From Nakazawaea peltata (lineage: Eukaryota; Ascomycota; Pichiomycetes; Alaninales; Pachysolenaceae): a DNA stretch of 64,000 bases. Below the pieces are notes generated by a model. The model was given only the letters and a program-made list of their open reading frames with translations, was not told where the DNA came from and searched no databases. The stretch lies in contig BCGQ01000007.1 of assembly GCA_001599355.1 (NCBI GenBank), positions 562,620-626,619 on the forward strand. The letters run 5' to 3'. Position numbers and translations under genes: made by a program. How positions within the stretch are numbered: the stretch's first letter is position 1; every line of letters begins with the position of its first letter. This document shows, piece after piece, positions 3,455-59,355 of this stretch.

Positions 3455-3757
3455 TCTTTACTTGATCACCCCAGTATTAACCCTTAAAGTCATCTTCTTC
3501 TAGATTTTATTGCCCGATTTTGGAGCGAAAAAGGTATCTACGTTGGTCACGTGAATCAGCCATTTATGGGATAATATTTGTAAGCAGATCACGTGACTGA
3601 AAAATCACGTGACCAGGATCTGAAACTACGATGAGAGGAAGATATCAACGGATTACAGCATTACAACGAATATAGACATGGAATATAGGTCTGGAACACA
3701 GCTATGGAACACATACCCTACAACCAGAGAACTCTATACACTCCTTACAATTACCAT
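3455..3757 (-). promoter_or_regulatory. YFH1 promoter with three TCACGTGA E-boxes
   Basis: Three perfect TCACGTGA palindromes lie at 3547-3554, 3589-3596 and 3605-3612, 93 to 158 bp upstream of the YFH1 start. This is the extended Cbf1-type E-box. Since CIA1 ends at 3758 on the same strand, the interval serves only YFH1. Confidence 0.75.
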
Positions 3758-13578: not shown

Positions 13579-13881
13579 GATGAACCGGTGGGTGGTATTG
13601 GTGCAGTTGAATGGTCTGTTCAATGGTCTGTTCAATCTCTTCTTATCAATTTCAAAACTGTGGTTCAAGATCTGCCCTTTGGTGTAATGATGTTTGTTGA
13701 GGATTTGCCCTGTGGCTTAAAAGCCGCGCATTTTCGTAATTTCGTAGCATCAAATCCCGATGAGCTTAGCCACACGGCTCAAATTGGTGTAAATTTTACG
13801 CTCAACGACCAAACTATTGATCAACTTGCTCCTATCCCCAAGATACGGTCACCTGTGAACATCACCTCATCTGTGAGCACC
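13579..13881. promoter_or_regulatory. Divergent promoter of YHR112C-like gene and APE4
   Basis: A 303-bp shared promoter. It contains TTCGTAATTTCGTAGCAT (13733-13750), one of the recurrent TTCGTAA-type motifs, about 130-150 bp from the APE4 start. A longer frame from an ATG at 13570 runs through here, but the extra residues do not look like protein and overlap the other gene. Confidence 0.55.
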
Positions 13882-19417: not shown

Positions 19418-20061
19418 TGCCCGGCATTGCTCATTAGTGCCTGATGATTTTATTTAATGGAGTTATTTAATTAATTTATTGAGATTGTATTAAGATAGTA
19501 GATAAATGTATGTCTGGAGAGGGTGTGGGTAGTCTGGCTATGGCCTGGCTGGGTCTCGGGCTCTGATTCCATCGCTTATCTCCATCTACTCCCTCTCATC
19601 TACTCTCTACCCTCTACCCTCTACTCCTACACTATTTATAATAATACAATACTATATTCAATGCATATAAACTTTTAGTTAAGACATCTGATCGATGTGA
19701 TACTGATGTCGATACTGACGAATCTCGAAAGCAATAGACTTTCTGGATGGAAATCAGAGTGATTTAAAGGTAGTGGATTGGGATTTGAGAAAATGGTCAC
19801 GTGATGGGCACGTGATGGGTGGTCCGAGGGTTTTCCGGGGGTGTAGCCACAAGTAGCCACGGGGAGTATCAGCCACTGAAAAATTCCAGCCACTGAAAAG
19901 TTCAGCCTCAAAGTGCCAGAAGTTGCCCCAGACGAGCTTTAGAAGAGCTCTCAGAAGGTGAGTCTTGTTGTACCATGGATAGGACGGTCACCTTGGGGTC
20001 AATACCAGTCTCTGTAAACTTAATGCCAATCCCTGGAGATTGGTGGATGCCAATCCCTGCC
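19418..20061. other. Convergent 3' region between MFS gene and MDN1
   Basis: No gene is supported. It holds a pyrimidine-rich stretch (19575-19630, TCTACCCTC type), a tandem pair CACGTGATGGG (19798-19819) whose first copy is part of TCACGTGA, and the repeated phrases TGCCAATCCCTG and GGTGGATGCCA near 20022-20075. Both flanking genes end here, so any E-box function would not be ordinary promoter activity. Confidence 0.5.
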
Positions 20062-26000: not shown

Positions 26001-29000
26001 TGCTCTTCAAGAACAGATGAGTGTTGTTCTGGAACACTTCAAGTTGCTGCTTCGACGTCTTCTGGAACTCCGAAACAACCTCAATAAGCCTGCTAACGTT
26101 ACTCAAATCAATAGTCGACTCCATGAAGTTGTTCCAGGCACCGAAAAGCTCGTCACTTCCTCCAGTTTCACGATAAACTCGAGGTTTAGACACGATTTGA
26201 GATGGGAACTCTGGCAATTTGCAAACTTCCGAGTTGAATACCTCAATAAACTCGTTTCTCACCTTTGAATATGCCTCTAAATGGCTCTGATAAGTCTCTT
26301 GGATCTCCGAATCCACATGGTCATGGATTGCTGGATCCACAGGAAGATCAGGAACGTACAATTGAACTACTCCAATACTGAAAATGATCCAGGCTTTACC
26401 AAGAGTTTCAATTGAAGGGTTTTCAATGAATTTCAAGGCTGGACCAAAGAATTGCTCGAATATTGGTGAGATGATCGGCAGATTCTTGGATTTCTCAATG
26501 ATCTCATGAACCTTATCAACTTCTCCAGTATATATAGCTGCTTTTAATTGATCTATAGCACCCGGAATCATCTCTTCAGTCTCTGGAATCACCAGAATCA
26601 TAATCTCAACTAACCAATCTCTCAATAATCTTTGGAAAACTTCAATTTTATCCTCCAACAACTCTTCCGAATGGTTCAAAATACTCTTCCCAAGCATCGA
26701 CATATCATCAATGGTCTGCGGAACTTGATATCCAGCAGTACGGCCAGCTTTAAGGCTCGCTTCAAGCACATTTTTACCTAAATCATCCCCAAATAAACCC
26801 CTAACCAAACTTCCATCCTTTTCACTCCATACAGAATCAAAGATACGCGGATAAGGTTTAAGGGAATGGGTATCAATCACCGAAGAAGTGTCTCTACCAC
26901 TGAGTAATACCAATTTCAAATATTCGTCGGAAAAACCGTCGGAAAAACTTTTAGAGTTTGACGCACGACCGTCGGATAATCTCATTTTAGACTTTTGTGC
27001 ACGACCAGATTCAATGAACACCAATAACAATTTGAATTCCTCCCTCAAATTGTTACCCCTTCTATTCAAGAATTTCCCAGATATTCTCTTCAACTCGGTA
27101 ACACCCTTCTCAAGTCTATCCAAAGTCAATTCGAACATTTCCACGTCCAAATCAACCCTCAAATTCTCCCTATATAACCCGATAATACTCTGTCTTAATA
27201 TGGAGATGGTTTCGTGGCTTTCGGAGAATTGGAGTTGCAGAACTTGGTCGAATTCTTTGGCTAAGATATCCAACCTTCTTTGTCTATCCCATCCAGCTTC
27301 AGATCCAGGATATTCTCCACGGAAATGTTCCCATAATGGGGTGATGAAATGACCTCTTTGAAGGTTTAAACCTTTAGCAAAGACCAGAGTTGAGGAGAGT
27401 AATGATTGGAAAAGAGCATAGAGACCGTTCTTTTGGTCAAAGATTTCAGTTACCCGAGTCTTCTCCACCCATTTCTCAACAACTTCTTGGTATACACGAA
27501 GTCTTGTCTCATCATTCAGCTCAGCTGCTCCTAAAAGACTAATCCAAATCATTTGAAGTTCAAATAAGGATTTATAGAATGGAGATTTCAAGAGCTCAGA
27601 CTCACCTTCACGAACATTCCATTCAAATACCTCTTTAACAAACTTCTCAATCTCCTCTACATACTTAAACACCTCCAATCTTGGAGCTCCCTTGAGTTTT
27701 CTACCCATCAACTGAGCAGCACTTCTTTCCAAGGCCGAAAGTTCACTGACTTTACCCTCCAGAGCTCTCAGACGAACTCTCTCCAATCTCAAATCACCTT
27801 CCATGATTCCAAAGGATACTTCTAACAAAAAGAACATCTTTTCATTATCGATATTCATCTCAGATAACATAGTTGATCCAATGAGTGGATTAATTGGTTG
27901 GTAAAGTACAAGTTGAGGGATGCAATAGCCGGAATAAACTTGAGCTATCGACTCAATGATGCCTTGCAGAGCTAAATGATCGAATTTATCGAGGATCTGA
28001 GTCCAAACTTGCTTAGTTTGGATCGAAAAGAGTCTTGAACGATGAACAGATTCGACAAACAGAGCTAAATAATTACGTGAAAGTAACGGAAGAGATCCAG
28101 TGAGGAGAGAAGAGAGTGAAGAAAGGTATTGGGAGAAGTTTTGGTTGGTAATGTCGTTGGAAGACTCAATTACGTCGGAGATCATGAAATAAGAGATGAG
28201 ATGAGATGGTGGAAGGGACAGGAATGAAGTGAGGGACAGTGACAAGCACTCAACTGGGTGCTCGTTCTCACCAGATAAGGTAAGACTTCTCAAATCAGTC
28301 TCGATATCTTCCTTCTTAACTTCCTCCTTGATTTCCACCTTAACTTCCACCTTAATATTCTCTACAACTTCCTTCTTAACTTCTTCCTTAACACTTCCCA
28401 AATTAATCACCCTCCTATCGAATTCAGTAGCAATTTCTTCAATCTTATCGACATAAATTTCGACACCTCTGTTTCTCATTGCTCTTGACAACTCTCCATA
28501 CTTCGGATCAACCGTCAAAAACAATCTAAACTCAGGATGAGGTACAATAACCCTCGGTTGTCCATCTGAATCACTACATTCATTTACGATTAATCTTCCA
28601 TTAGTTTCAAGCAACGAATTTAACCGATCAAGAACCGATGGACTACAAAGATTAGCATTATCAAGTACTAACCATCTACCTTCTTCGACGGCCTGAACTA
28701 AAAGACCATCGAACCATTCAAAACGAACAGTTTCGGATTTACTAAGACGGACTTGAAGCAGCTGACAATCGGAATTAAGTTGGGCAAGGTTTGGTTGGGA
28801 TATCATTGACGAAAGTGAATCGACGTAGAGTTTGAGTTGTGCAAAGATATCGACGGATGGAGGAGTGTTTCTTACAAAGGCAAGCAGTTGTAAAGAGATT
28901 GCGAGGATATCCGCTTTATCCGCTTTATCCGACAACGGTTGCTCGCTAATCTCGCTAATCTGAGCAATCTCCGACTTTTCCGACACCTGCAAATTAATTC

Positions 29001-32000
29001 CACACAACTCCCCTAAGACAGTCTCCAACTTCCCCATAATACCAGATATCATCCTAGTCGGGTCAACCTGTTCATATCCTCCCAATATGTCCATACTATC
29101 AACCTCAGCATTCATCGAAAACTCAGATAATTCCGCACCTACAATAGACGCAACATATCTAATCATTTCGGTCTTTCCAGATCCTGATGGACCATCCAAA
29201 ATCAATGGCCATGATTGATTAATACATGTCAACATTGATTCAAGTGCCGGGACCATACATTGGAGTGGGAATAGGTGATGAGATGAAGTCTTCAGGATCA
29301 AATCACGACGAGAAACTGATTGGGAACCAATTTGAATATGATTGGAGCCAAGCGAAAGGATTGGGAGGTTTTGTGGGGTGGAATTGAAGATCTGATTGTA
29401 AAGAGAATGGACATGAAGACGATCAGGCGGTGAGCGGAAACGTTGGGTGAATAAAATGTCGAGGAACATACCCGGATCAGCTCTCAGCTGTTTGCGAGCA
29501 CCACCTTCTCTCATACATTCCATCCACCTCAACGTATCTCTCAAATTAAACTCCCATGGTCCTCCCATGACCCCCCATTTCCTATCAACAACAACCTCCT
29601 TCTCCAACCTAGCTACAAACTCAATCATCTTCCTACAAATATCTTCATCAATCTCAGGATACAAATGTTGAGCCACCATATTCAAATCCTCCAGCTTCAA
29701 CATGTCAACGTAAACGACACTAAATCTATTCACAAACGATTTAGGTAATCCCTTACGTCCTCCACCTTGATATTGAGGATTCTGAGCAGCAAATACAACG
29801 AAATTCTCATCACATGGGAACGATTTGTCCAACTCAGGAATGTACAGTTCTCCTCTATGATCCAAACAAGCATTCAACCCTTCTAATACCGATTGACTTG
29901 CCAAGTTCATCTCATCAAGCAAAACCCATTCACCTTGTTTCATAGCTCTAAGGAACGGAGCATCTTTCCAAACGAATTCTCCGGTTTCTCCGCCCTCAGC
30001 AGGAGCGTCCGACCCGAATAAATCGATCAAATCCGTTTGCTCAGATAAATTGATTCTAGTCAATTTATGGCCGGTAGTCAGAGCCAAAGCAGACACCAAA
30101 GATGTCTTTCCCACACCCGGACTTCCTTCAAGAAGAATAGGTTTATGAGCTTGCATGGCTCTAAGGATTCTCATGGTATTGGTAGCGGTAGTTGGAGCTT
30201 GTAAATTGAAAGAAACAGCTGAAGAATCACCTGGAACTCTGTCTATATGGTAAAGACCACATTCAAGAGTCGTCTCGGTCAATCTCACCTCATATTTACT
30301 CTCATAATACGCCTTCAAATCGACTCCCACCAACCTAGAAAGCTCATTTATACACTCGGATTTCATCGATCTCAATCTGGACTCATTCTCAGCTAAATAA
30401 GCAGTGTTATTGGTACCCAAAGCATCAATAAACACCATTGCTGCACCGTGCAACAACGAAGCAGCCGAGTTCCCAGTCACTTTCCACGATTTATTGACGA
30501 AATCCACCCAGGTAAGAATATCTCTCAATGAAATAACCCCACTAGAGACATTTCCACCCCCAAATTTACTTCCATACCATTTAGAAAACTCTACTAACGG
30601 ATCTACAACACTCACCAACTCGTCAGATACCAATTTGGAGGCGACGATTTGTCTGACATCCTCGAAATCCTCCATCGATGGTACCCAAATCTCGGTGAAT
30701 CTATTACGAAGAGCAGGACTTAACTCCTTCTTACCATAATCCCCTCCAGGGTTCATTGTAGCGAGGAATTTGAACTTCTCGACGGCCGTGACGAAGCTGT
30801 CGTCTCCAGAACCTTTCTCGGCCAACAAAAGACTCCTCTCAGGTTCAAGAACCGAGTTCAATCTCTCAAGAACCGAGTCATCAGCAAGAGAAATCTCATC
30901 AAGAAGGAACAAGTCACCAGATCTCATTGCTTGGATCAACGGACCGTCATTCCACTCGAAAAGAACGTTCAGAGCAGCTCTAAGCTCTTCCAAAGCCTTC
31001 TTCTCGTCTTCCGGAAGCTTGGAAATCACATTAGATCCATCAAAGACCCCACAAAGCTCGGTAAATCCGATCTCCTCGTCAACTGGAACTCCATTGGACT
31101 CTAAAATGGTTCTCATCTGCTTGACAGCCCTGGTCTGAGTCTCAAATCTGTTCCTCACCGGTCTCTGAGCACCCAAAATATCACCAGTCTCGGTGTTCTG
31201 ATGAGCATTCAACACCACCAACTTCTGCCCACCATACTCGGCAACCAACTGGCATATGGTCGTCTTACCACATCCAGTCTCACCGACAAGCAATACAGGC
31301 TCATTATATTGAATCAGCTGGCTCACCAACACCGATAATCTACGCATAGCTTTGGTCCACACGACCCCACTAGGCATCTGGAACAATTCCTTCACCTCGA
31401 GACTCTCATAATACTCGTCCATATCAAGCTTGACCCTCATCACCTTCTCGATCACCTGCTTGACCATCAACTTCTCATCCGGACGACGTACTCTCTCAGC
31501 AAGAAGCATGTACCCGTTAGCAGCCAATTGCTCGTACCCGACAGCCTCTCTTTGAGCCCACCGGAACAAGTCTCTCAACGTAGCAAACGAGTTTCCTTGC
31601 TCCATGAACCTTGACAGTTGTCTCAGCACACTCAACAGCTTGTACGTCTCTACGATCTTCTTACCATACGATGGGGCGATTTTACAACGTTCCTTCAAGA
31701 TGATCTCTAACTCGTCCTCTGGGATATCGTCGAAATGAAGCTCAAGGAAACGATTACGGAAAGCTCTACTCAAGATTTTACGACCTCCATAGATCCCTGG
31801 AGGATTCTGTGTAGCAAATAACATGAAATCAGGATGAGGACGGACCACTTCTTGGGTCTCCGGGATGAACAACTCTCTGTTGTCGTCGAGCAAACGATTC
31901 AATGCTTCCAAGACATCGGTAGGAGCCAAATTTAACTCATCCAACACGATCCAGTGTCCATTACGTAACAGTTCTACTAAGATCCCCTCCTTGAATACTA

Positions 32001-35000
32001 ATTTACCACTACTATCACTACTGTAAGTGCCTAAATACTCTTGGAGATCGGTATGCTCGTGGTTATTGATCCTCACGAACTTATGTCCGGTGATATTGGC
32101 CAAATAATGGATCATCGAGGTCTTACCACTCGATGTTGGCCCCTGGATGAGTACCGGGAACCGACGACCAGACGTCAGCCGCACCAAATTTAACATATTC
32201 TTCTCGACGAACGGCGTGATGATGTAATTAGGTTGAGGATTTACTTCTAACGGACCATGTTTCATCCAATAATGACGGAATTGAACATATTCGGACCCTG
32301 GTGTACTTGGATCCTTCGGGATTTGAGACATCACCGACTTGGAGTTCTTTAATCTAGCTAAAGTGTACTTCTCAATGACAGGCTTTAAGAGGTTTTCGGA
32401 TTTGAGATCAAGAAGTGTTAAGAAACTCATACAGAACCCTTCGTAAAGAGCCCTTCTCAATCCGTAGATCCCTACTATATCTCTAACGTATATAAGAGTA
32501 CGAGTAAGTGTACGTATACTAAAGTGAGGCTTTTGATTAGCACCGTCTACGATCCTATTCGCCTCCGACAACCTCTTCAGTTCTAAATACAATTCGGCAA
32601 TATCATTGCCCACCCATTCGTCAGCAACGGCGAACCGTCCTATATATTTATCGATGATCATTAACAAGTCCCCCATGTCACGGTCAGGAGAATGGACGTA
32701 CAATTCGGAGAATCTGGAGCGAATAGAGACCGGAAGCTCTTTCTTGCCTACATCGGTCGAAGGGTTCATACAACCAAAGATACGGAAATCGTCATGAGCT
32801 TTGATGCTTTGGATGTCTCCACTTTCGGAGAGCAAGATGCTTCTTTGGTTAGGGATCTCAGAGAGAAGGTCCGAGATGCTTTCGAGGGTTTCTGGAGACA
32901 GTAAATTTATTTCATCGAGAAGTAACCAGTCACCGTTTTTAATTGCACGAATAAGCAGACCTTCAATGAATTGGAAAGCGAAAGCCGAGTCGAGATTGAG
33001 GGAGGTTTTGGAGAAGGAGGAGACGGAGGCGGAGAAGGAATTCCATTGGGTGGCGAGAGCGGAGCGTTGGGACGCGGAGAGTTTTGACGCGTCACGGCGT
33101 CTTTTTTTCGCTGGGGGTTCATCCGCATGGCCCTCTGTATTTTCGTGCCCGGATTTATTTTTCTGCCCGGCGTTTTCGTGCCCGGATTCACCACCTTCAG
33201 TCTTCATTTGCCCTTGCTGCGCTTCGGCTTTCTCATCCGCTTTCTCCTCCGCTTCAAGGTGCTTCATAGCCATCCGCACCAGCTCCTCCCATAACCTTAC
33301 AACATTCTTCCATTGTCCCCTATTAAAACACTTGGACAACACTCCAAAGAATTTCGCATTCTTCTTAACACTGAACGTCTTATTAAATAACTCCTCAAAC
33401 TCCTCTTGTAATGGCAAGGCCATAAGCTTAGTATTAACAGGCTTGAACCCACCAAGCAAATCTCCGGCTTCGGTCTGCTGAGACACATTAATTACTGTGA
33501 TCTTCTTATTCAACATACCAGCTACTTGTTGAACTACCGTTGTCTTACCTGTTCCCGTCTCTCCTACAAGCAATACAGGCTCATACATAGACACGGCAAC
33601 GGCTATCTGTTCCATCAACTTGAGGGAATGAGCAGTACGGGCAAATGAAGAATTCACTTGACTACTTTTATGCGAACCAATCTCTTTCTTCAATAAACCA
33701 CGTCCAATCCTCAATTCGACCCCATTATCTTCAAGCTGAGGTACATTTCTATTCAAGAACAACTGGATACGTGATGAGGCTACCTCTAACAGCTGTCCTA
33801 TACAGTTAACAACCACTACAAGAGCCAGATGCTCGTCAATTGAACTAGCAAAACAATCGGCCAGCTCTTGGAATATCATATCAAACACCACAGAACTAAC
33901 CTCTTCTTGCTGCTCCAACTCGTCAATCCCATTCACCACCAACATATGGTGGACACGTCCACAGAACTTGACAAAGTCTCTAACTGAGATAATACGTGGC
34001 TGAGAAGCCCTATTAAGCGCTACAAATTTACGAGATCCATAAATTTCAACCACCAGTTCAAACATACCGATGAATTTTTCAAGTAATGGTCTCAAGATCG
34101 GGTATTTCTCTTGTAATATGGCTTTTAAGTCGTCTCTTCCTAATGCTGGAAGTCTAATTACGTCCCACATCCGCATTCCAATCATATCTCTGACGTCTTC
34201 AACTCCAGGATTAAGTCTAATTGTAGAAATCAACTGGAATCCATTGGCAGCCTTAATAACTTCGCCTCTAGATGGGATAGTCAACTCCTTCTTCTCCAAT
34301 AATGTCAACAAGACACTAAGAACTTCGGTAGGAGCCTTATCAATGTCCTCAATTAACACCCATTTACCTTCTTGGACGGCTGTCGTCAAGACACCATTCT
34401 TCCATTGGAAAGAACCAGGTTTACTACCTGAAGTGTACGTTCCTAACAAGATCTTTGCGTCGGTCTGGTCATTCAAATGGATCTTAATGATCGAACTATT
34501 GGAATCTTTACGTAATAAGGTCGCAAGTTCGTTGATCAAGAACGTTTTACCTGCTCCCAGTTCTCCTACAAGCATTGTAGCACGGCCAATTTGGATATTC
34601 TTGGCCATACGAGATAATGTGCTGACTGATTTTTCAATGGGAATAAGATTAGACTCCCCAAATGCTTCCTCTTGGAATGTGGGTATCAAATTTCCACATA
34701 CTGACACCACGGTAGACGAAAGATTGGCTGGTGTAATGATGAATTGTCTACCTGACTGACGATTTACAAGCTTGGATTGCATCTTAATGAAGTTGGAAAG
34801 TCTCTGAGCTTCCAATACTGGTAAAAATGAGTAATCTACACCATTATCTCCCTCATAATGACCTTTTGGAGCACCCAGACCCAAATGTAACTTGGTCATT
34901 TCTTCTTGTACGACCTCTGCTAACTCAAGGCATTGTCCCAACAACTGAATACTCAAATATTTCGTAACAAGGGACACTCCACTGGTTTGTAAGTATGCAT

Positions 35001-35448
35001 GCAACAATGAAGGCTCGACAAAACGGCGGAATCTGTCCCGGTCTTGACGGATAAGCCTGTAAAAGGCAAGTAAAATACTCTCAAGGTCGTCTTGGGAGAT
35101 ATTTTCAACGGATTTCAATGCTTCAAAGACCTGTTGCTGGTCTAAATAATGTTCCAGGAGAACGGCAAGCTCAGGAGCAACTCCAAATGGTTCGGAGAGC
35201 AGTCTCAAAATGGCAACCTGGCTGTTCCTGGTATTTTTCTCAATGCTTCTAGTGACTATCTCTATATACAACGGACGAGCGGCGTAATAAACCGGCATGG
35301 ATCCTCCAGTAGCACATACAATCTCAGCTAACCGGTCCAATACCTGATCCAGAGTCTCACACCCGCTCAACTCAACACCATCTGTAGCGCCATACTCTGC
35401 AATATTGGTGATGAAATCGTCCAAATAAAACACGATATCGTTGTTCAT
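20062..35448 (-). CDS. MDN1: Midasin, giant AAA ATPase of 60S ribosome assembly
   Basis: A 5128-residue, uninterrupted frame (S. cerevisiae Mdn1/Rea1 has 4910). Midasin uses a hexameric dynein-like AAA ring and a MIDAS domain to pull Rsa4 and Ytm1 off pre-60S particles. Six Walker A motifs are visible: GE(L)GAGKT at 295, GETGTGKT at 629, GPTSSGKT at 1103, GETGCGKT at 1389, GSPGVGKT at 1775 and GPSGSGKT at 2086; the bracketed L is a CTG codon. A long helical linker follows, then a D/E-rich tract (about 4290-4830), then the C-terminal MIDAS with DDSKS (D4930, S4932, S4934). Lineage-specific low-complexity inserts occur in the linker. RRPE and PAC elements lie upstream. Confidence 0.98.
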   Translation of the reverse strand: MNNDIVFYLDDFITNIAEYGATDGVELSGCETLDQVLDRLAEIVCATGGSMPVYYAARPLYIEIVTRSIEKNTRNSQVAILRLLSEPFGVAPELAVLLEHYLDQQQVFEALKSVENISQDDLESILLAFYRLIRQDRDRFRRFVEPSLLHAYLQTSGVSLVTKYLSIQLLGQCLELAEVVQEEMTKLHLGLGAPKGHYEGDNGVDYSFLPVLEAQRLSNFIKMQSKLVNRQSGRQFIITPANLSSTVVSVCGNLIPTFQEEAFGESNLIPIEKSVSTLSRMAKNIQIGRATMLVGELGAGKTFLINELATLLRKDSNSSIIKIHLNDQTDAKILLGTYTSGSKPGSFQWKNGVLTTAVQEGKWVLIEDIDKAPTEVLSVLLTLLEKKELTIPSRGEVIKAANGFQLISTIRLNPGVEDVRDMIGMRMWDVIRLPALGRDDLKAILQEKYPILRPLLEKFIGMFELVVEIYGSRKFVALNRASQPRIISVRDFVKFCGRVHHMLVVNGIDELEQQEEVSSVVFDMIFQELADCFASSIDEHLALVVVVNCIGQLLEVASSRIQLFLNRNVPQLEDNGVELRIGRGLLKKEIGSHKSSQVNSSFARTAHSLKLMEQIAVAVSMYEPVLLVGETGTGKTTVVQQVAGMLNKKITVINVSQQTEAGDLLGGFKPVNTKLMALPLQEEFEELFNKTFSVKKNAKFFGVLSKCFNRGQWKNVVRLWEELVRMAMKHLEAEEKADEKAEAQQGQMKTEGGESGHENAGQKNKSGHENTEGHADEPPAKKRRRDASKLSASQRSALATQWNSFSASVSSFSKTSLNLDSAFAFQFIEGLLIRAIKNGDWLLLDEINLLSPETLESISDLLSEIPNQRSILLSESGDIQSIKAHDDFRIFGCMNPSTDVGKKELPVSIRSRFSELYVHSPDRDMGDLLMIIDKYIGRFAVADEWVGNDIAELYLELKRLSEANRIVDGANQKPHFSIRTLTRTLIYVRDIVGIYGLRRALYEGFCMSFLTLLDLKSENLLKPVIEKYTLARLKNSKSVMSQIPKDPSTPGSEYVQFRHYWMKHGPLEVNPQPNYIITPFVEKNMLNLVRLTSGRRFPVLIQGPTSSGKTSMIHYLANITGHKFVRINNHEHTDLQEYLGTYSSDSSGKLVFKEGILVELLRNGHWIVLDELNLAPTDVLEALNRLLDDNRELFIPETQEVVRPHPDFMLFATQNPPGIYGGRKILSRAFRNRFLELHFDDIPEDELEIILKERCKIAPSYGKKIVETYKLLSVLRQLSRFMEQGNSFATLRDLFRWAQREAVGYEQLAANGYMLLAERVRRPDEKLMVKQVIEKVMRVKLDMDEYYESLEVKELFQMPSGVVWTKAMRRLSVLVSQLIQYNEPVLLVGETGCGKTTICQLVAEYGGQKLVVLNAHQNTETGDILGAQRPVRNRFETQTRAVKQMRTILESNGVPVDEEIGFTELCGVFDGSNVISKLPEDEKKALEELRAALNVLFEWNDGPLIQAMRSGDLFLLDEISLADDSVLERLNSVLEPERSLLLAEKGSGDDSFVTAVEKFKFLATMNPGGDYGKKELSPALRNRFTEIWVPSMEDFEDVRQIVASKLVSDELVSVVDPLVEFSKWYGSKFGGGNVSSGVISLRDILTWVDFVNKSWKVTGNSAASLLHGAAMVFIDALGTNNTAYLAENESRLRSMKSECINELSRLVGVDLKAYYESKYEVRLTETTLECGLYHIDRVPGDSSAVSFNLQAPTTATNTMRILRAMQAHKPILLEGSPGVGKTSLVSALALTTGHKLTRINLSEQTDLIDLFGSDAPAEGGETGEFVWKDAPFLRAMKQGEWVLLDEMNLASQSVLEGLNACLDHRGELYIPELDKSFPCDENFVVFAAQNPQYQGGGRKGLPKSFVNRFSVVYVDMLKLEDLNMVAQHLYPEIDEDICRKMIEFVARLEKEVVVDRKWGVMGGPWEFNLRDTLRWMECMREGGARKQLRADPGMFLDILFTQRFRSPPDRLHVHSLYNQIFNSTPQNLPILSLGSNHIQIGSQSVSRRDLILKTSSHHLFPLQCMVPALESMLTCINQSWPLILDGPSGSGKTEMIRYVASIVGAELSEFSMNAEVDSMDILGGYEQVDPTRMISGIMGKLETVLGELCGINLQVSEKSEIAQISEISEQPLSDKADKADILAISLQLLAFVRNTPPSVDIFAQLKLYVDSLSSMISQPNLAQLNSDCQLLQVRLSKSETVRFEWFDGLLVQAVEEGRWLVLDNANLCSPSVLDRLNSLLETNGRLIVNECSDSDGQPRVIVPHPEFRLFLTVDPKYGELSRAMRNRGVEIYVDKIEEIATEFDRRVINLGSVKEEVKKEVVENIKVEVKVEIKEEVKKEDIETDLRSLTLSGENEHPVECLSLSLTSFLSLPPSHLISYFMISDVIESSNDITNQNFSQYLSSLSSLLTGSLPLLSRNYLALFVESVHRSRLFSIQTKQVWTQILDKFDHLALQGIIESIAQVYSGYCIPQLVLYQPINPLIGSTMLSEMNIDNEKMFFLLEVSFGIMEGDLRLERVRLRALEGKVSELSALERSAAQLMGRKLKGAPRLEVFKYVEEIEKFVKEVFEWNVREGESELLKSPFYKSLFELQMIWISLLGAAELNDETRLRVYQEVVEKWVEKTRVTEIFDQKNGLYALFQSLLSSTLVFAKGLNLQRGHFITPLWEHFRGEYPGSEAGWDRQRRLDILAKEFDQVLQLQFSESHETISILRQSIIGLYRENLRVDLDVEMFELTLDRLEKGVTELKRISGKFLNRRGNNLREEFKLLLVFIESGRAQKSKMRLSDGRASNSKSFSDGFSDEYLKLVLLSGRDTSSVIDTHSLKPYPRIFDSVWSEKDGSLVRGLFGDDLGKNVLEASLKAGRTAGYQVPQTIDDMSMLGKSILNHSEELLEDKIEVFQRLLRDWLVEIMILVIPETEEMIPGAIDQLKAAIYTGEVDKVHEIIEKSKNLPIISPIFEQFFGPALKFIENPSIETLGKAWIIFSIGVVQLYVPDLPVDPAIHDHVDSEIQETYQSHLEAYSKVRNEFIEVFNSEVCKLPEFPSQIVSKPRVYRETGGSDELFGAWNNFMESTIDLSNVSRLIEVVSEFQKTSKQQLEVFQNNTHLFLKSIELKYWKFGDLNDILKGFIYGMKFGFEILGLRQEGEISRTWASDLNVLTRPEKIEETFEKVMKVCRKVSVEKLFVERVMEHFVKVYFIQELAGSGEMLIQIFQLLYYRWSLRQMKKLENELAKASLYRGVNEEEESEEEFKKMFPDYDEVMTLEEPGEGEVSGLPAQTSLDDVYYEIANTYLRVFGSTRDSGSTRDSGLGSRSGSSSSSRSRSSFSLSEIIQSGILINSIPELSTSSSLQSLDNSQISVILTLINHSLTQFDDQATSIDFYTESSPLQTKRCVSVLTKVQGFASSLLQQWPEHATLQNIFRSATEGVNFSVQTPLAKLLAKVEQVYTFVAEWEKYAHSKVSFKAEFDQLTELIISWRRMELGTWKRLFERERMVMRKEIGRWWFYLFETIIVLTGSGDSGDSDLGSGSGSGSSSGSSSGYGSSPASLVNALNIFLSQSSYGEFEHRLALLSLFSNHLHQLDASNDICDALSNVIAYYSEFLPAVNDHITAETKILEKKINEVILLASWKDVNIDLLKQSARRSHQSLYKVVRKFRGVIGESVRGMVEGGLVNGEVKSRRRFNVTLGLGDVTLGGTLGLGNATLGLGDATLGETTSGERNVALAHASPTVSILPASKSPLIVAKNMQTYLSQITNEPTLNILTFSKDLLDQMELLKSETPSKFTEETKKTIAALKTQKRKLLSDTLKEIRRLGIKLTVLPDVLKLQESASLILATSRSFEGTVLGGIDGHYLRMIDLIPRLRAAVASCNEEVPLSDAQKALGGIENLLNGLISSRRRLRRFGEGVERMMGMVREVERLTKCPAVPGSVPVSSGASGASGSLGSAIYISYWIPILCDHNILAIENSRKYTSDMSKCDLTIFNELRPKMSQFGKRLREIQGREVMVVDDEKCLEEFERSLKELDEELKRWSEGNVYGFLGDGLREWMKLTGSTFELGTETGFKQLPGSSLPGTDVPGTSTAFRSTATSMVLAIQKLISIQKDLQILPDSDDWFKNSRLKLTKYIQTSSITSINRKIDACFESIRNGGESSQAYCLALLPLLKSYLNLVVGLLNKAGNDYIDNCHGTFILSKCLYNVASSGFCSPQEEEEAKNDGNMQEGTGMGDGEGASNNNDDDHGDEDDLADAAQQLNEDQKERDEEDEDNAVDIEGDMAGELEDAPAEDDEEGDDEKEGDEEELDDEIDDLDDLDPNAMDDKMWDEEVEDKKEKESDEVKGSEGDMELGEEENEDKNEDKNDLKDKNDDKNDLKEDQNDQNENEDGEEDEDGEEDDGEDDLGMQEDDIKNSEDNQLDPMIEESEALDLPEDMQLDSGDEKEGDDEDEVDGEDDVDDVDEMDVDEVEDRGEKGEAEDEGEAEDADAVPEEVDPAKAEEKEDEKEDGEEDVEDGEDGEDEDEEGDADQGTAIDEDAQPEPEPQSDTELNEDSSSKSQDFQSLDNLEGLDGIEDDDDVDAEAAARQEAGQKGEGTEASADQEQDAVGASGAADTQQEEKLDESTKDSARDAAQESLKQLGDSLKEFHRRHQEILELERDDVAEQKAGEKPDEFQHLEEGEEAKEETQALGNANEEQVRGIDDEMAIDEEAPEDPKDLEEPATQAESQPEAQSEAQPETKEEADEAENPETADDFNGQGEGGVKKEADEAEAESDNEVDSKIKKEDEMDIDEEEEEGNPDSEEDGDGDGDDGEEEIPPHSLEDARSLWRSSDLATSELSAHLCEQLRLILEPTLATKLRGDYKTGKRLNMKRIIPYIASQFRKDKIWLRRTKPSKRQYQIMIAVDDSKSMAESNAVKLAFDSIALVAKLLTQLESGGLSIVKFGEETRVVHPFDKPFTTESGAQVFRWFDFQQTKTDIKKLCTKSIELFNESNSGGDLWQLEIIISDGVCEDHETIQRLVRRAREDKIMLVFVVIDGINSNESIMEMSQISYVADENGRMVLNVAKYLDTFPFEFYVVVKDVNELPEMLSVILRQYFSALAST
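24170..24300 (-). repeat. 21-bp coding repeat within MDN1
   Basis: About four or five degenerate copies of a 21-bp unit (ACCGAGGGTTGCATCACCCAG type) encode a seven-residue repeat TLGLGDA in the MDN1 linker. The array is in frame and interrupts nothing conserved. Confidence 0.85.
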
Positions 35449-41383: not shown

Positions 41384-42709
41384 ATGACGGAACCTTCAAG
41401 GGAGCAGTTATTAGCAGAGATTCTGCTGCTTAAGGAAGAGAATCAGAAGTTAAAATCCAAAAGAGACCAGGTTCCTACTGTTTCTACCGAAGTTATTACT
41501 CAAAATGGGGTCTCAGAATTCTCTTTAGACGAGTACAGGAGATATGGAAGACAGATGATCGTACCGACCGTGGGGATAAAGGGCCAAATACTGTTAAAGA
41601 AGGCTAAAATATTGGTTATAGGAGCTGGAGGACTCGGTTGTCCTCTGCTTTTATACCTCACTGCTCTGGGAATCGGAGAGATCGGTATAGTGGATAACGA
41701 CACAGTCGATGAGTCCAACTTGCACCGTCAGGTGTTACATACCACCGAGAATGTGGGTATGTTTAAATGTGATTCACTGGCTAAGTATTTGAGCAACTTA
41801 AATCCCCATGTACAGCTCACATTATTCAAGGAGAGGTTGACAAATGAATCTAGTTTCCGCATTTTCGAAGCCCGGCCATGGGATTTGATTTTGGATTGTA
41901 CTGATACCCCGTTGACCAGATATTTGATTAATGACACTGCTGTTCTTTGTGGTATTACTATTGTCTCTGGATCTGGAGTCAAAACGGATGGTCAGCTCTC
42001 GATTCTTAACTATAAAAATTGGGGTCCTTGCTATAGATGTTTCTATCCAAAGCCCCCACCTGCCAACTCTGTATTATCTTGTAAAGATGGAGGTGTCATT
42101 GGACCTGCAATTGGTGTAATGGGTACTATGATGCTGTTAGAACTGATTAAGTTGATTTGTGGAGAATATGAGGATAATTTCAAGCCTTTTTTGAATTTGT
42201 ATACTGGTTTGCATAATCAATCTCTCCGTGTTTTCAAGATGAGAGGTAAAAATCCGGATTGTGCTGTATGTGGTAACAGTAGTTCTACTAATGTCACCAG
42301 GGAACTTATCACTTCAGGTGCCATAAATTATTCTGAATGGTGCGGAAAGGTCGACTACGATGTCGTTGAAAACTCAATGAGGATTGACGTAGATGAGTTC
42401 CTGAAACGGATTCAAAATGACCCAGATTATGCTCTTATTGATGTTCGTCCTCCTCAACACTTCGATATATGTCATTTAGAAGGGGCAATTAACATTCCTT
42501 TGGATGATCTTGAACAAATGCTGCAAATAACTGATGTCTTCCCAGATAAAACCCCTAAAAATGTATATTGTATTTGCAGATTCGGGAATGACTCGAGATT
42601 GGCAACCCGTTTCTTACGTCAAAAGTTCGGGTTGACTGAGGTTTATGATGTTATAGGTGGTGTCAACAGATGGACCGACATAGTCGACCCTTCCTTCCCT
42701 AAATATTGA
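41384..42709 (+). CDS. UBA4: E1-like activating and sulfurtransferase enzyme Uba4
   Basis: A 441-residue protein (S. cerevisiae 440) that adenylates and thiolates Urm1 for tRNA 2-thiolation and urmylation. An N-terminal coiled segment precedes the E1 fold: the ATP loop VIGAGGLGCP, then DNDTVDESNLHRQVLH. The thiol-bearing SVLSCKDGGV and zinc pairs CYRC and CAVC are present. A C-terminal rhodanese domain (about 340-441) has the sulfur-carrying cysteine in CICRFGNDS. CTG codons at 41645-41647 (GLGCP-ctg-LLYL) and 41666-41668 (TA-ctg-GIGEIGIVD) fall where Uba4/MOCS3 proteins usually have alanine. A TGAAAAATTTT-like element precedes the gene near 41333-41343. Confidence 0.96.
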   Translation: MTEPSREQLLAEILLLKEENQKLKSKRDQVPTVSTEVITQNGVSEFSLDEYRRYGRQMIVPTVGIKGQILLKKAKILVIGAGGLGCPLLLYLTALGIGEIGIVDNDTVDESNLHRQVLHTTENVGMFKCDSLAKYLSNLNPHVQLTLFKERLTNESSFRIFEARPWDLILDCTDTPLTRYLINDTAVLCGITIVSGSGVKTDGQLSILNYKNWGPCYRCFYPKPPPANSVLSCKDGGVIGPAIGVMGTMMLLELIKLICGEYEDNFKPFLNLYTGLHNQSLRVFKMRGKNPDCAVCGNSSSTNVTRELITSGAINYSEWCGKVDYDVVENSMRIDVDEFLKRIQNDPDYALIDVRPPQHFDICHLEGAINIPLDDLEQMLQITDVFPDKTPKNVYCICRFGNDSRLATRFLRQKFGLTEVYDVIGGVNRWTDIVDPSFPKY

Positions 42710-42879: not shown

Positions 42880-43764
42880 ATGTCCGGAGAAGAGAAAGTG
42901 ATTGAGAATGATGATCGTATCGATTTAGGTACCGAAATAGCCAACAATGCCAATATAATTGAGCCCCTCAAATGGCAAGATTGTAGCACTTTCATCGTGC
43001 TAAATCAGAAGATCAAGATTGACCAAGAGGTGTTTGAGGAGGTATGGGGGCATACCAAGTTGAAGATCTGTGTTGATGGTGGGGCTGATAGGTTGAAACA
43101 GTTCTGTGAGAGTCATAATATGGACCCTCTAGCATATATTCCAGACTATATCATTGGGGATTTCGACTCAGTAAAAGACGAAACCTTACTGTTCTATAGA
43201 GACAAAGGCGTCAGTATTATCCATCAAGAGACACAATATAGTACTGATTTCATGAAACTGTTGAGTCTTGCAAACTTGGTATTGTATTTTGGGTTTACTG
43301 GACACATAAAAGTAGATGAATACGACGGGATAGCAAAGTTAGAAGAGCAATATTTATTAAATGTGGAATCGACGTCGTTAAATCGTGAGAAGATATTCGT
43401 GGTTGGAGGAATTGGGGGTCGACTCGACCAAACTGTGCATTCGATATCGATGCTTTATAAATCCCAAGCAAATTATCCCCAATTCCAGTTACTTTTGATT
43501 AATAGAGACTGTGAAGACATGACAGTTTTGGCACCAAGTGGAAAGAATTATGTCAAAGTTGATAATACTGGGGATGAGAAGATCATTGTAGGTATGTTAC
43601 CATTTGGAGATGCGGTGAAATTGAATACCAAAGGGTTGAAATGGGATGTCGTCAACTGGGAAAGTCAAATCCATACCAAGGTGAGCTCATCGAATCATGT
43701 AGTGAACAGAGATGGATTTTTAGTCGAATGTGATAAGCCAATAATATTGAATGTGGCATTGTAA
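42880..43764 (+). CDS. THI80: Thiamine pyrophosphokinase
   Basis: A 294-residue enzyme (S. cerevisiae Thi80 has 319) that transfers pyrophosphate from ATP to thiamine. The catalytic N-domain shows KICVDGGADRLKQF, DYIIGDFDSVKDE and TQYSTDFMK, with the acidic metal ligands in place. The C-terminal thiamine-binding sandwich includes FVVGGIGGRLDQTVHSI and LNTKGLKWDVVNW. A CTG (43258-43260) follows DFMK where the family commonly has TKAL, again pointing to alanine. Downstream, after an SMN-like gene on the other strand, lies LSC1; in S. cerevisiae THI80 and LSC1 are direct neighbours (YOR143C, YOR142W). Confidence 0.96.
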   Translation: MSGEEKVIENDDRIDLGTEIANNANIIEPLKWQDCSTFIVLNQKIKIDQEVFEEVWGHTKLKICVDGGADRLKQFCESHNMDPLAYIPDYIIGDFDSVKDETLLFYRDKGVSIIHQETQYSTDFMKLLSLANLVLYFGFTGHIKVDEYDGIAKLEEQYLLNVESTSLNREKIFVVGGIGGRLDQTVHSISMLYKSQANYPQFQLLLINRDCEDMTVLAPSGKNYVKVDNTGDEKIIVGMLPFGDAVKLNTKGLKWDVVNWESQIHTKVSSSNHVVNRDGFLVECDKPIILNVAL

Positions 43765-45119: not shown

Positions 45120-46094
45120 ATGTTAGGTAGACAATTTGCTCGTAACTTCTCTTCTTCCAGTAAGAGATTGGCCGACTACTCCAAGACCATTCCAAACTTG
45201 AAGGTCACCTCCGACACCAAGGTTATCTTCCAAGGTTTCACCGGTAAGCAAGGTACTTTCCACGCTGAGCAAGCTTTGGCTTACGGTACTCAAATTGTTG
45301 GTGGTACCAACCCAAAGAAGGCTGGTCAAACCCATTTGGGTAAGCCAGTTTTTGCTTCTGTTAAGGACGCCATGGCCGAGACCGGTGCTACTGCTACTGG
45401 TATCTTTGTTCCTCCATCTATTGCCGCCAAGGCCATTGAGGAGGCCATTGAGGCCGAGATCCCATTGGCTGTTTGTATCACCGAAGGTATCCCACAACAC
45501 GACATGTTGAGAGTTCACCAAATGTTGAAGACTCAAGAAAAGACCAGATTGGTTGGTGGTAACTGTCCAGGTTTAATTGCTCCAGAGCAATGTAAGATCG
45601 GTATTATGCCATCTTCTATCCACAAGCGTGGTAAGATTGGTGTCATTTCCAGATCTGGTACTTTGACTTACGAGGCTGTTGCTCAAACTACTCAAGTTGG
45701 TTTGGGTCAATCCCTTGTTATTGGTATGGGTGGTGATCCATTCCCAGGTACTAACTTCATCGATGCTTTGAAATTATACTTGAACGATGCCGAGACCGAA
45801 GGTATTATCTTGATTGGTGAGATTGGTGGTACTCAAGAAGAAGAGGCTGCTGAGTACTTGAAGCAATACAACTTGACCAGAGATGTTCCAAAGCCAGTTG
45901 TTTCCTTCATTGCCGGTGTTACTGCTCCACCAGGTAGAAGAATGGGTCACGCTGGTGCCATTGTTGCTGGTGGTAAGGGTGATGCCAAGTCTAAGATCGC
46001 TGCTTTGACTGATGCCGGTGTTATCGTTGAAGCTTCTCCAGCTAGATTAGGTAAGGCTTTGTACCAAGAATTCGTCAACAACAACTTGTTGTAA
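45120..46094 (+). CDS. LSC1: Succinyl-CoA ligase, alpha subunit (mitochondrial)
   Basis: A 324-residue TCA-cycle subunit (S. cerevisiae 329) with a presequence [17 protein letters not shown]. The CoA-binding domain includes [15 protein letters not shown] and [15 protein letters not shown]. The catalytic part has [19 protein letters not shown] and [16 protein letters not shown]. The phosphorylated histidine lies in [11 protein letters not shown]. The open frame continues upstream without an ATG, so 45120 is the start. Codons are as strongly biased as in TRR1 (TTG, GGT, AAG, AGA) and CTG is absent or nearly so, as expected of a highly expressed gene. With LSC2 it converts succinyl-CoA to succinate with ATP formation. 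Confidence 0.98.
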
Positions 46095-46357: not shown

Positions 46358-48586
46358 CTATTTAACCTCCTCAATATCCAAATGCTCTTGAATAGTCCAT
46401 AATTCCTTGTATAATGATTCTTCTTTCTGCAATAACTCATAATGGCTTCCCTCCTCCATCACCTCACCCTTTCTCAACACAATAATCTTATCACTATCGG
46501 CAATGGTCCTCAATCTATGTGCAATACTTACATTTGTATTAAGACTCTCTTTAAAGATCTCTTTAACGGTTCTTAATAATGACTGTTCAGTATGGGTATC
46601 CAACAGAGAAGTCAGCTCATCGAAGAAAGTGATCGGCAGCTTCTTCAAAAGCAATCTAGCAATCGCCAACCTCTGCTTTTCACCCCCACTGATCATCATA
46701 CCACGTTCTCCCACAATGGTATCTACACCATCAGGTAAGTCATTAATCAACTTGTCCAATTGAACTTGCAGGATCAGCTCTTGTACCTCCTCATCACTGG
46801 CATCCAACCTACCATACCTCACATTCTCCTTGATAGTATCGTTGAACAAAGGTGTATCTTGAGGAACAATTCCAATAAGTCTTCTCAAACTTTCCAAATC
46901 GACAGTGGTGATATCTTGACCATCGACAAGGATACGTCCTTCGGATGGGTCATAGAATCTGAATAACAATCTCAAGACAGTACTCTTACCACTACCGGAA
47001 GGTCCAACAATAGCTACTTTTTGACCGGCCGGAATAGTGAAGGAACAATTTTTCAAAATTGGCCTGTCAGGATGATAACCAAAAGTGACATTTTCGAAAC
47101 GAATTTCACCTTTAGTCAATTGTAATGGAGGAGCATTAGGCAATGACTTGATTGTGACTTGGTTCTTCTGCAAATGGAACAAAGTCTCCATATCCAATAA
47201 CGACTGCTTCAATTCTCTGTACACACTTCCTAAGAAATTCAAAGGTACACTTAATTGGAACACCAATTGGTTAATCAAGACCAAGTCTCCTACAGTTAAA
47301 GAGCCAGAAGCGACACCTTGACACAGCATATACATCATACCAGTCAACAGAGAAGTGAAGATCAAATTCTGACCCGAATTCAAGAACAGTAATGACGTAG
47401 CCACCTTAATAGAGGCATCTTTATATTTACTTAAGGCATTATCATACTTCATCAGCTGATACAGTTCATTGTTGAAGTACTTGACACTCTCATAATTGAT
47501 CAACGAGTCCAACAGTACACTTGCCAGCTCATTGTCGGCCTTATTGGCCTGTCTTCTAAACCCAGTTCTCCAAGCTGTAGTACGGATAGTAAATATAGAG
47601 TACAGTAACATGGTGGAAAACGTCAACAGGGCAAATCCTGGACCATAATTATAAGTCAAGATACCACAAACTACACTGATCTCAAAAGTGATAGGTAAAA
47701 TATGGAATACCATAGCCGTCAACACATAAGAAATACCTTTTGTACCTCTATCTATGGCTCTTGTCAACCCACCGGTCTGTCTAGTAAGATGGAAATTCAA
47801 ATCCAAGTTCAATAAATGAACAAAGGTGTTATGAGCTACCTTCATAATAGCATTTTGCAGCACTCTGGCGAAGATGGCATTTCTCAATTCACCTAATAAG
47901 ACTGCACCGAAACGGGCTCCTCCATAGGCAAGGATGATACCTCCGATGACGGAGGTCATGACTCCCACTTGGGTGGCCCAGTCGATGTTCATAGAGTCTA
48001 TAATGGATTTGAAGAAGAAGGGAACCTGGACATTCAACAATTTGGACCCGATCAACATCAGTAATGCTATGACTACACGGACTTTGGCGCTAGTCTGACC
48101 TTTTGGCCAAAGGTAGGCCATGAGATCTTTGATGATTTTCCATTGGGAGACTACACCTGGTTCTTCTGTTCCAATTTGGGAGCCGTTAATTGGGTTAGAC
48201 TTTGCTTCTGCTGCTACAGTGCCTGGAGCGACAGTGCCCGGCACAGAGCCTGGAATGCCAGAGACTGGAGCGCCCAGTAGAGTGCCTGCCTCAGTGCCCG
48301 GGACAGACCCCAGCACATCCTCAACCTTCACATCCTTAACCTTCACATCCTTAGCCTTCACATCCTTAACATCCTCCAATAACCTTCTTCCCCCACTAAA
48401 ATAACGACTCCCATCCCAAGTCCTGGAAATCAACATCTCACTTTGCCTTGACGGAGATAAAACTGTGGCTCGAAGAGAAGAACCGGTAGTTAACCCACCA
48501 ATTCTTAACCCTTTTGAACCCAAACCAACGCTCCCATATCCAACTTGACTATAAAAACGTTTCAAGACATTAATCCGCATCATCAT
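46358..48586 (-). CDS. ATM1: Mitochondrial ABC half-transporter Atm1
   Basis: A 742-residue half-transporter (S. cerevisiae 690) of the inner membrane that exports a glutathione-sulfur or Fe-S precursor for cytosolic Fe-S assembly. After a presequence and a lineage-specific repetitive linker ([13 protein letters not shown] and PGT-rich units, about 70-130) come six membrane helices, with [14 protein letters not shown] in an intracellular loop. The nucleotide domain has Walker [10 protein letters not shown] and signature [13 protein letters not shown]. Under the standard code the next part would read [16 protein letters not shown]. The three odd leucines are CTG codons (46637-46639, 46613-46615, 46604-46606); as alanine they give KKAPITFFDEATSALD, the canonical form. 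So the protein is intact. Three ATGs in a row begin the gene. Confidence 0.96.
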
Positions 48587-51804: not shown

Positions 51805-52770
51805 ATGTCAGACTCAAAACACAGATATAAAGCCGAGATCCAGCAAATGATGTTCGTCTCAGGTGAAACCGAAGACCCTCTTCCTGAGACCCTTCTGTTA
51901 ATAGAAGACATTGTAAGAGGTCAGGTAGTTGAAATCGTCTTAAAGAGTTCACAGACCCTGTTTTCACGTGGTTCCAAATCGATCCTGCCCGAAGACGTGA
52001 TCTTCTTAATTAGACACGATAAACTGAAAGTCAATAGACTTCGTACATATTTGAGTTGGAAAGATGTGAGGAAAAACGCTAAAGATCAAGAAGAAGGTAA
52101 TATTGGTACCGGGAATGATTTGATGGAAGACCCATCTAGCGGTATGGGATCCAATCTTGCTAGTCAAGATTCGAAAATGATGAAGAGTTTGAAGAAATCC
52201 ACCATCAAATTACCTTGGGAATTACAATTCATGTTCAATGAACAACCTGTCGAAAGTAACGATAATGATTCTCCATTGGATAGAGAGGAGAAGGAACTGA
52301 CTATTCAGTCATTGAAGAGATTAAAACTGAACGATGATCGTACTAAACATATGACCAAAGATGAATATGTGCATTGGTCCGAATGTAGACAACTGTCTTT
52401 CACGTTTAGAAAACTGAAAAGATTCAGAGAGTGGTGTGGATTATCTCATTTGACTGACCAACGTCCTCATGATGATGTCATTGATATTCTCGGGTTCCTC
52501 ACTTTCGAAATGGTTTGTAGTATCACTGAAGAACTGTTGAAAGTACGAGAATTGGAAGACGAACTTCTAAAAGACGACGAGAGGGTATTACAACAGAAAC
52601 GTAAGAGGGTAAAACAATACCTTTTCGACCCACCAGATGATTCTAAATACCCGTTGAAAGCCGAGCATATCTCCGACGCTTGGAGACGTTTACAAAGAGT
52701 CGAATTCAAGCATAAATGTATTTCTAACTTTAGAGGCGGAAGGTTCAAATCTAAGACAAACTTAATCTAA
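51805..52770 (+). CDS. SPT3: SAGA subunit Spt3
   Basis: A 321-residue protein (S. cerevisiae 337) with two histone folds that pair within the chain and help SAGA deliver TBP. The first (about 6-95) includes EIQQMMFVSGETEDPLPETLLLIEDIVRGQV and VNRLRTYLSWKDVR. The second (about 180-321) includes WSECRQ, PHDDVIDILGFLTFEMVCSITEE and the C-terminal FRGGRFKSKTNL. Four CTG codons (52024, 52393, 52414, 52534) occur where Spt3 or its relatives carry alanine, for example DK-ctg-KVNRLRTYL and CRQ-ctg-SFTFRK. The 3' end is only 16 bp from the convergent FAD2 stop. Confidence 0.96.
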   Translation: MSDSKHRYKAEIQQMMFVSGETEDPLPETLLLIEDIVRGQVVEIVLKSSQTLFSRGSKSILPEDVIFLIRHDKLKVNRLRTYLSWKDVRKNAKDQEEGNIGTGNDLMEDPSSGMGSNLASQDSKMMKSLKKSTIKLPWELQFMFNEQPVESNDNDSPLDREEKELTIQSLKRLKLNDDRTKHMTKDEYVHWSECRQLSFTFRKLKRFREWCGLSHLTDQRPHDDVIDILGFLTFEMVCSITEELLKVRELEDELLKDDERVLQQKRKRVKQYLFDPPDDSKYPLKAEHISDAWRRLQRVEFKHKCISNFRGGRFKSKTNLI

Positions 52771-58584: not shown

Positions 58585-59355
58585 ATGGGTGCACCAACTG
58601 CTGTTAGAAAAGAGCCTGTGGCTGCTTCAGTAGCTGGTCCAGCTGTTGAGGATGATGATATTTTAATAGACTCTGCTGTCACCGGGACAGAAGAAACTTC
58701 TTCACTGGAATTAAAGCATGATGGAAAGAAACAAGAGACCGCCGGTATGGTACTTGATGAAAGTGGAAAACCTCGTTTCAACAGTGCTGCTACTTCCGGA
58801 ATGAAAGTTAAATTGGAATCCAGAAAAGTGCCGGTACCTCCTCATAGAATGACCCCATTGAAGAATGCTTGGAATAAAGTATACCCTCCATTGGTTGACC
58901 ATTTGAAGTTACAAGTGCGGATGAACTTGAGAACCAAGACTGTAGAATTGAGAACTAACTCTAAGACTACCGATCCTGGTGCTTTACAAAAAGGTGCTGA
59001 TTTCATCAAGCTGTTCACACTAGGATTTGATACCGATGATGCCATTGCTCTTTTGAGATTGGATGATTTGTATATCGAAACCTTCGAAGTTAAGGATGTT
59101 AAAACCTTACAAGGAGACCATTTGTCCAGAGCTATTGGTAGAATTGCCGGTAAGGATGGTAAGACCAAATTTGCAATTGAGAATGCCACCAGAACAAGAA
59201 TTGTCCTTGCCGACTCCAAAATTCACATTTTAGGAGGTTTCACTCATATCAGAATGGCCAGAGAAGCTGTCGTATCATTGATCTTAGGTTCTCCTCCAGG
59301 AAAAGTATATGGAAACTTGAGAACTGTCGCTTCTAGAATGAAGGAAAGATACTAG
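58585..59355 (+). CDS. PNO1: Pre-18S rRNA assembly factor Pno1/Dim2
   Basis: A 256-residue KH-domain protein (S. cerevisiae 274) of pre-40S particles that binds the 3' end of 18S rRNA with Nob1. The first 70 residues are acidic and variable. The remainder is nearly invariant across eukaryotes: PPHRMTPLKNAWNKVYPPLV, RTKTVELRTN, GFDTDDAIALLRLDDLYIETFEVKDVK, the KH core HLSRAIGRIAGKDGKTKFAIE, and GSPPGKVYGNLRTVASRMKERY. A CTG at 59011-59013 lies in FIK-ctg-FTLGFD where Pno1 has alanine. RRPE/PAC-like elements lie 45-73 bp upstream, fitting ribosome-biogenesis control. Confidence 0.97.
   Translation: MGAPTAVRKEPVAASVAGPAVEDDDILIDSAVTGTEETSSLELKHDGKKQETAGMVLDESGKPRFNSAATSGMKVKLESRKVPVPPHRMTPLKNAWNKVYPPLVDHLKLQVRMNLRTKTVELRTNSKTTDPGALQKGADFIKLFTLGFDTDDAIALLRLDDLYIETFEVKDVKTLQGDHLSRAIGRIAGKDGKTKFAIENATRTRIVLADSKIHILGGFTHIRMAREAVVSLILGSPPGKVYGNLRTVASRMKERY

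Follow-up and report, generated by a model that had tools for sequence, protein, structure and literature searches.

Alignments strongly support alanine as the reading of CTG in a gene-dense 64 kb stretch of presumed budding-yeast DNA

The coding sequences of the window, by which we mean the whole 64 kb stretch of DNA analysed here, strongly support alanine over leucine and serine as the reading of the codon CTG. The window is almost certainly nuclear DNA of a budding yeast, most likely one of the Alaninales/Pachysolenaceae, in which CTG is translated as alanine, presumably by a tRNA-Ala(CAG), and the other 60 sense codons keep their standard meaning. Such a reading of CTG is already documented as the CUG-Ala code, which has been described in one small yeast group, Pachysolen and relatives. 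This assignment had been put forward in an earlier note on the same DNA and is borne out here by a test over all sense codons with CTG masked; Pfam scores also bear it out, though less evenly.

The window has a G+C content of 42% and is gene-dense. Open reading frames (ORFs) were listed with the standard stop codons assumed, and 27 long ORFs with a total of 17,024 codons constitute the data set; CTG accounts for 277 of these codons (16.3 per 1000). Solved structures of homologues, the best match in each case, identified nine genes: ATM1, UBA4, CIA1, LEU4, SPT3, APE4, MDN1, THI80 and PNO1. Other ORFs are presumed by us to be LSC1, TRR1, FAD2, TFC6, RTC5, ELG1 and MDM31, and the organism names given for PDB chains are likewise our assumption unless they stand within the printed molecule name. 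A scan of bacterial and archaeal genomes for UBA4 returned zero relatives.

In the nine genes every CTG codon was masked by translating it as X, and each protein was aligned to its best-scoring PDB match, with one homologue per gene, so that the alignment was not drawn to any reading. The tally covers the aligned stretches, and CTG codons of the query outside them were left out. The genes and the residues found opposite their CTG codons are as follows.

CIA1, 3758-4837, minus strand: 6 CTG codons; Ala opposite 5 of 6 in 2hes Ydr267cp
LEU4, 6813-8618, minus strand: 7 CTG codons; Ala opposite 5 of 6 aligned; homologue 1sr9 2-isopropylmalate synthase
LEU4 CTG codon 415, 7374-7376, minus strand: Ala opposite in 1sr9
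APE4-like M18 aminopeptidase, 13570-15300, plus strand: long ORF with 7 CTG codons; Ala opposite 2 of 5 aligned in 7dde
MDN1 (midasin), 20062-35448, minus strand: 72 CTG codons; Ala opposite 5 of 8 tallied, in a slice of codons 821-1320
UBA4, 41384-42709, plus strand: 10 CTG codons; Ala opposite 5 of 8 aligned in 6yub Uba4
UBA4 CTG codons 88 and 95, 41645-41647 and 41666-41668, plus strand: Ala opposite in 6yub Uba4 and in ThiF 1zfn
THI80, 42880-43764, plus strand: 2 CTG codons (43189, 43258); Lys and Cys opposite in 1ig0, Ala 0 of 2
THI80 CTG codon 127, 43258, plus strand: Cys opposite in 1ig0
ATM1 (mitochondrial ABC transporter), 46358-48586, minus strand: 18 CTG codons; best PDB match 7psl Atm1 with 889.7 bits; Ala opposite 10 of 16 aligned
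ATM1 Walker B/D-loop stretch KKXPITFFDEXTSXLD, 46604-46639, minus strand: CTG at 46604-46606, 46613-46615 and 46637-46639; A, A, A in 7psl Atm1
SPT3, 51805-52770, plus strand: 9 CTG codons; Ala opposite 6 of 9 in 6tb4
PNO1, 58585-59355, plus strand: 2 CTG codons (58705, 59011); Glu and Ala opposite in 5wlc Pno1, Ala 1 of 2
PNO1 CTG codon 143, 59011, plus strand: Ala opposite in 5wlc Pno1

These nine of the 27 ORFs were chosen in different ways. ATM1, LEU4, UBA4, THI80 and PNO1 came from the earlier note, CIA1 and the MDN1 slice were taken after their CTG sites had looked alanine-like, and SPT3 and APE4 were taken for their solved homologues and their number of CTG codons. The MDN1 tally covers 8 of the 10 CTG codons of the searched slice and 8 of the 72 in the gene, and the CTG column at codon 296 of APE4 was aligned to a gap and dropped. 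In the APE4 ORF homology starts near codon 106, with about 105 codons open upstream (13570-13890), and the ORF shares 9 bases with a divergent Cys/Met PLP-enzyme ORF. The true start of APE4 probably lies near codon 105-108, and the CTG at codon 35 therefore probably falls outside the coding sequence.

Across 3598 aligned residues the tally contains 62 aligned CTG codons, and Ala stands opposite 39 of them, followed by Glu (4), Ser (3), Leu, Gly, Lys, Val and Phe (2 each) and Arg, Asn, Asp, Thr, Gln and Cys (1 each). A count of CTG columns against homologues had been proposed in the earlier note, and in these nine genes neither leucine nor serine dominates it. The other leucine codons face Leu in 237 and Ala in 12 of 348 columns, and the excess of Ala at CTG over this background (binomial P 2.5e-41) is not chance. 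GCN alanine codons face Ala in 84 of 161 columns, a share that does not differ from that at CTG (Fisher P 0.18), and serine codons face Ser in 137 and Ala in 26 of 274. CTG columns thus resemble GCN alanine columns and are unlike any other codon class. When each codon was assigned its best-fitting amino acid by summed BLOSUM62, this was the standard one for 60 of the 61 sense codons, with thin data for CGA (n=2, a tie with Lys), CTA (n=4), GCG (n=4) and CGC (n=5). CTG is the sole exception; its best fit is Ala with a sum of 141, and the runner-up is Ser with 39. Likelihood models of the CTG columns gave log-likelihoods of -111.9 for the GCN (Ala) class, -171.0 for Ser, -224.5 for Leu and -170.8 for the background, and Ala was the best of all 20 amino-acid classes.

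Removal of the eight sites cited in the earlier note leaves Ala at 32 of 54 CTG columns, and further removal of MDN1 leaves 27 of 46. When CIA1 is taken out as well, 40 columns remain, with 22 Ala, 2 Leu and 2 Ser; CIA1 and MDN1 were removed because the look of their CTG sites was known when they were chosen. THI80 (0 of 2) and APE4 (2 of 5) are low in Ala and count against the alanine reading.

All eight cited codons, three in ATM1, two in UBA4 and one each in LEU4, THI80 and PNO1, are in frame CTG codons at the positions given for them. The three in ATM1 lie on the minus strand as codons 650, 658 and 661, and the proposal that alanine restores the canonical DEATSALD there is well supported, as Ala, Ala and Ala are present at these sites in S. 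cerevisiae Atm1 (KNARIMFFDEATSALD). Two other distinct homologues have P/A/A and P/A/S (7pqx and an ABCB7, respectively). The first of the three is therefore not a conserved alanine, since Pro stands opposite codon 650 in both, and at codon 661 ABCB7 has Ser. The agreement claimed for the independent sites stood for LEU4 codon 415, UBA4 codons 88 and 95 and PNO1 codon 143, which all face Ala, and failed for THI80 at 43258. The statement that the orthologous residue is alanine each time was overstated; Ala is found at seven of the eight sites in the best-scoring solved homologue, the remaining one being Cys (THI80 codon 127), and ATM1 codon 650 faces Pro in two of three distinct homologues.

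ATM1 and MDN1 also carry low-complexity stretches, for which word counts and Tandem Repeats Finder showed short words and tandem arrays. In ATM1 the N-terminal part (48210-48370) has a 15-bp tandem repeat encoding KDVKV units; next to it comes a stretch rich in Gly, Pro and Thr that contains CTG. The region 23100-25450 of MDN1 is of low complexity and rich in Gly, Ser and Thr, with some CTG codons in tandem units such as TLG-CTG-GD. A 10-base word, TGCCGGGCAC, occurs in 5 copies against 0.02 expected, an excess which is partly selected since the word was chosen from the word count. The stretches and the word are located as follows.

MDN1 low-complexity stretches: codons about 3340-3370, 3553-3580, 3722-3763 and 4085-4115
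Word TGCCGGGCAC: 19417-19426, 23108-23132, 23566-23575 and 48234-48243; three copies in MDN1, one in ATM1 and one at the end of an MFS-family ORF

We take NCBI translation table 26 to be the CUG-Ala code and table 12 to be the CUG-Ser1 code of the Candida clade. Mulhausen 2016 and Riley 2016 are said to be the first reports of the CUG-Ala code. The window shares with the CUG-Ala code of Pachysolen tannophilus, Nakazawaea and Peterozyma both the reading of CTG as alanine and the standard best fit of the other 60 sense codons. In the CUG-Ser1 and CUG-Ser2 (Ascoidea, Saccharomycopsis) codes, too, it is CTG that has been reassigned in budding yeasts, but the amino acid here is alanine and not serine. 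From the published biology of the CUG-Ala code, the ancestral tRNA-Leu(CAG) would have been lost, and a tRNA-Ala whose anticodon turned to CAG would now decode CUG. Such a tRNA would be charged by AlaRS, an enzyme that needs no particular anticodon bases. Within the 64 kb window no tRNA was found by ARAGORN (bacterial code) or by Rfam at gathering thresholds.

The source very likely belongs to the Alaninales/Pachysolenaceae (Pachysolen, Nakazawaea, Peterozyma), on the basis of the published distribution of the code and of one gene, SPT3. This gene scores 422.5 bits against 6tb4, which we take to be from Komagataella, and 392.4 bits against 6t9i, presumably from S. cerevisiae. The scores of this one gene agree with a place nearer to Pichiales than to Saccharomyces. 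As given in the available text of one survey, the CUG-Ala clade consists of Nakazawaea, Peterozyma and Pachysolen (PMC5951914), and NCBI taxonomy places these three genera in the family Pachysolenaceae of the order Alaninales. In the accessible part of the Codetta survey of 462 yeasts, the CUG prediction matched the known clades in 453 cases, while 9 yielded no inference (PMC8629427).

The share of CTG among alanine codons bears on whether the code was acquired independently. With the APE4 ORF trimmed, CTG makes up 276 of 1131 alanine codons (24%). It sits at near-invariant alanines, and so high a share is mildly notable. In recoded clades CUG is described, in the text available of PMC5951914, as relatively rare and as tending to orphan genes or poorly aligned, mostly poorly conserved regions, whereas here it is common (277 of 17,024 codons) and present at near-invariant Ala sites. 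No printed CTG frequency for Alaninales was found in the passages of the literature that were consulted, and the available text of PMC6701816 states that five CUG-Ala genomes were removed from its data set. Since a change from GCN to CTG takes at least two base changes, the high use of CTG is suggestive of an old, settled code. In a post hoc comparison, the lowest CTG shares were found in the two most codon-biased genes, LSC1 (0 of 36 alanine codons) and TRR1 (2 of 35), with a Spearman rho of 0.43 (P 0.025) over 27 genes. Genes with a strong codon bias, which are probably highly expressed, may thus tend to avoid CTG. The absence of CTG from the LSC1-like ORF at 45120-46094, set against 24% overall, is likewise a post hoc observation.

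These features leave a small chance that the yeast lies outside the sampled Alaninales, or is a deep member, with a CUG-Ala code so old and so fully adopted that CTG has become a quarter of the alanine codons, near-invariant sites included, with the two most codon-biased genes nearly devoid of it; the reassignment would then be independent or far advanced. That CTG was reassigned separately from the Pachysolen clade, a reading to which the same departure from a rare CUG lends weight, is in itself very unlikely, as the surveys, in the parts available, put the CUG-Ala yeasts in one clade (PMC5951914; PMC8629427).

An ambiguous CTG, read mostly as alanine with a minor share of leucine or serine, appears highly unlikely. 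A mixture of Ala and Leu fits best with 3% Leu (95% upper bound 12%) and an admixture of Ser fits best at 0% (upper bound 10%); these bounds leave room for a low level of ambiguous reading, and according to the accessible text of PMC8629427 Ascoidea and Saccharomycopsis have tRNAs that compete for the codon. What speaks against it is that CTG codons face Ala at least as often as GCN codons do, and that the frequencies of Leu opposite the two, 2 of 62 for CTG and 1 of 161 for GCN, do not differ (P 0.19).

Pfam scores under the three codes (26, 12 and 1) bear on alanine, serine and leucine as the reading of CTG. The scan included 20 proteins or parts (19 ORFs, with MDN1 in two parts), three of which matched no Pfam family at the chosen threshold. 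Among the 23 main domain hits counted, Ala scored highest in 18, Ser in 4 and Leu in 1, with summed scores of 3833.8 bits for Ala, 3772.8 for Ser and 3725.6 for Leu, and Ala exceeded Leu in 22 of the 23. The first set of ten proteins was uniform (Ala best in 14 of 14), while the second was mixed (4 of 9), and the scores do not favour Ala everywhere. Ser was highest in TLD (113.3 against 111 bits for Ala, 2.3 bits), in EMP24 (146.6 against 145.2, 1.4 bits) and, by 0.1 bit each, in Pyr_redox_2 and RRM_ESF1; in VWA Leu was highest (29.8 against 28.7 for Ala) and Ser was also above Ala. DUF3474, NUC153 and MDN1_4th (differences of at most 0.1 bit) and secondary or overlapping hits were omitted from the count; some of the omitted hits scored above Ala, namely AAA_21, Sugar_tr and WD40_Prp19 with Leu, and Pyr_redox and ABC_tran on MDN1 with Ser. 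One ORF of 533 aa at 5152-6753 contains 12 CTG codons and, as judged by eye, a membrane segment; at 1e-5 it matched no Pfam family under code 26, 12 or 1.

Serine, as in the CUG-Ser1 or CUG-Ser2 code, has these four families, VWA and 3 of the 62 CTG columns in its favour. With a log-likelihood 59 units below that of alanine, a worse fit as the earlier note had held, and an admixture estimate of zero, it is scarcely credible. Equally hard to credit is the standard code, in which CTG is leucine and the Ala matches are chance substitutions, for the slight gain in VWA and two Leu columns stand against about 113 log-likelihood units, the rarity of Ala at other Leu codons and nearly all of the counted families.

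Alanine remains the strongly supported reading of CTG in this window. Reassignment of a sense codon in nuclear genomes is very rare. If such DNA were annotated under the standard code or table 12, about 1.6% of the codons in these genes (277 of 17,024) would be given a wrong residue, those of the DEATSALD motif included. The high share of CTG at near-invariant alanines provides data on the extent to which a reassigned codon may be re-adopted.
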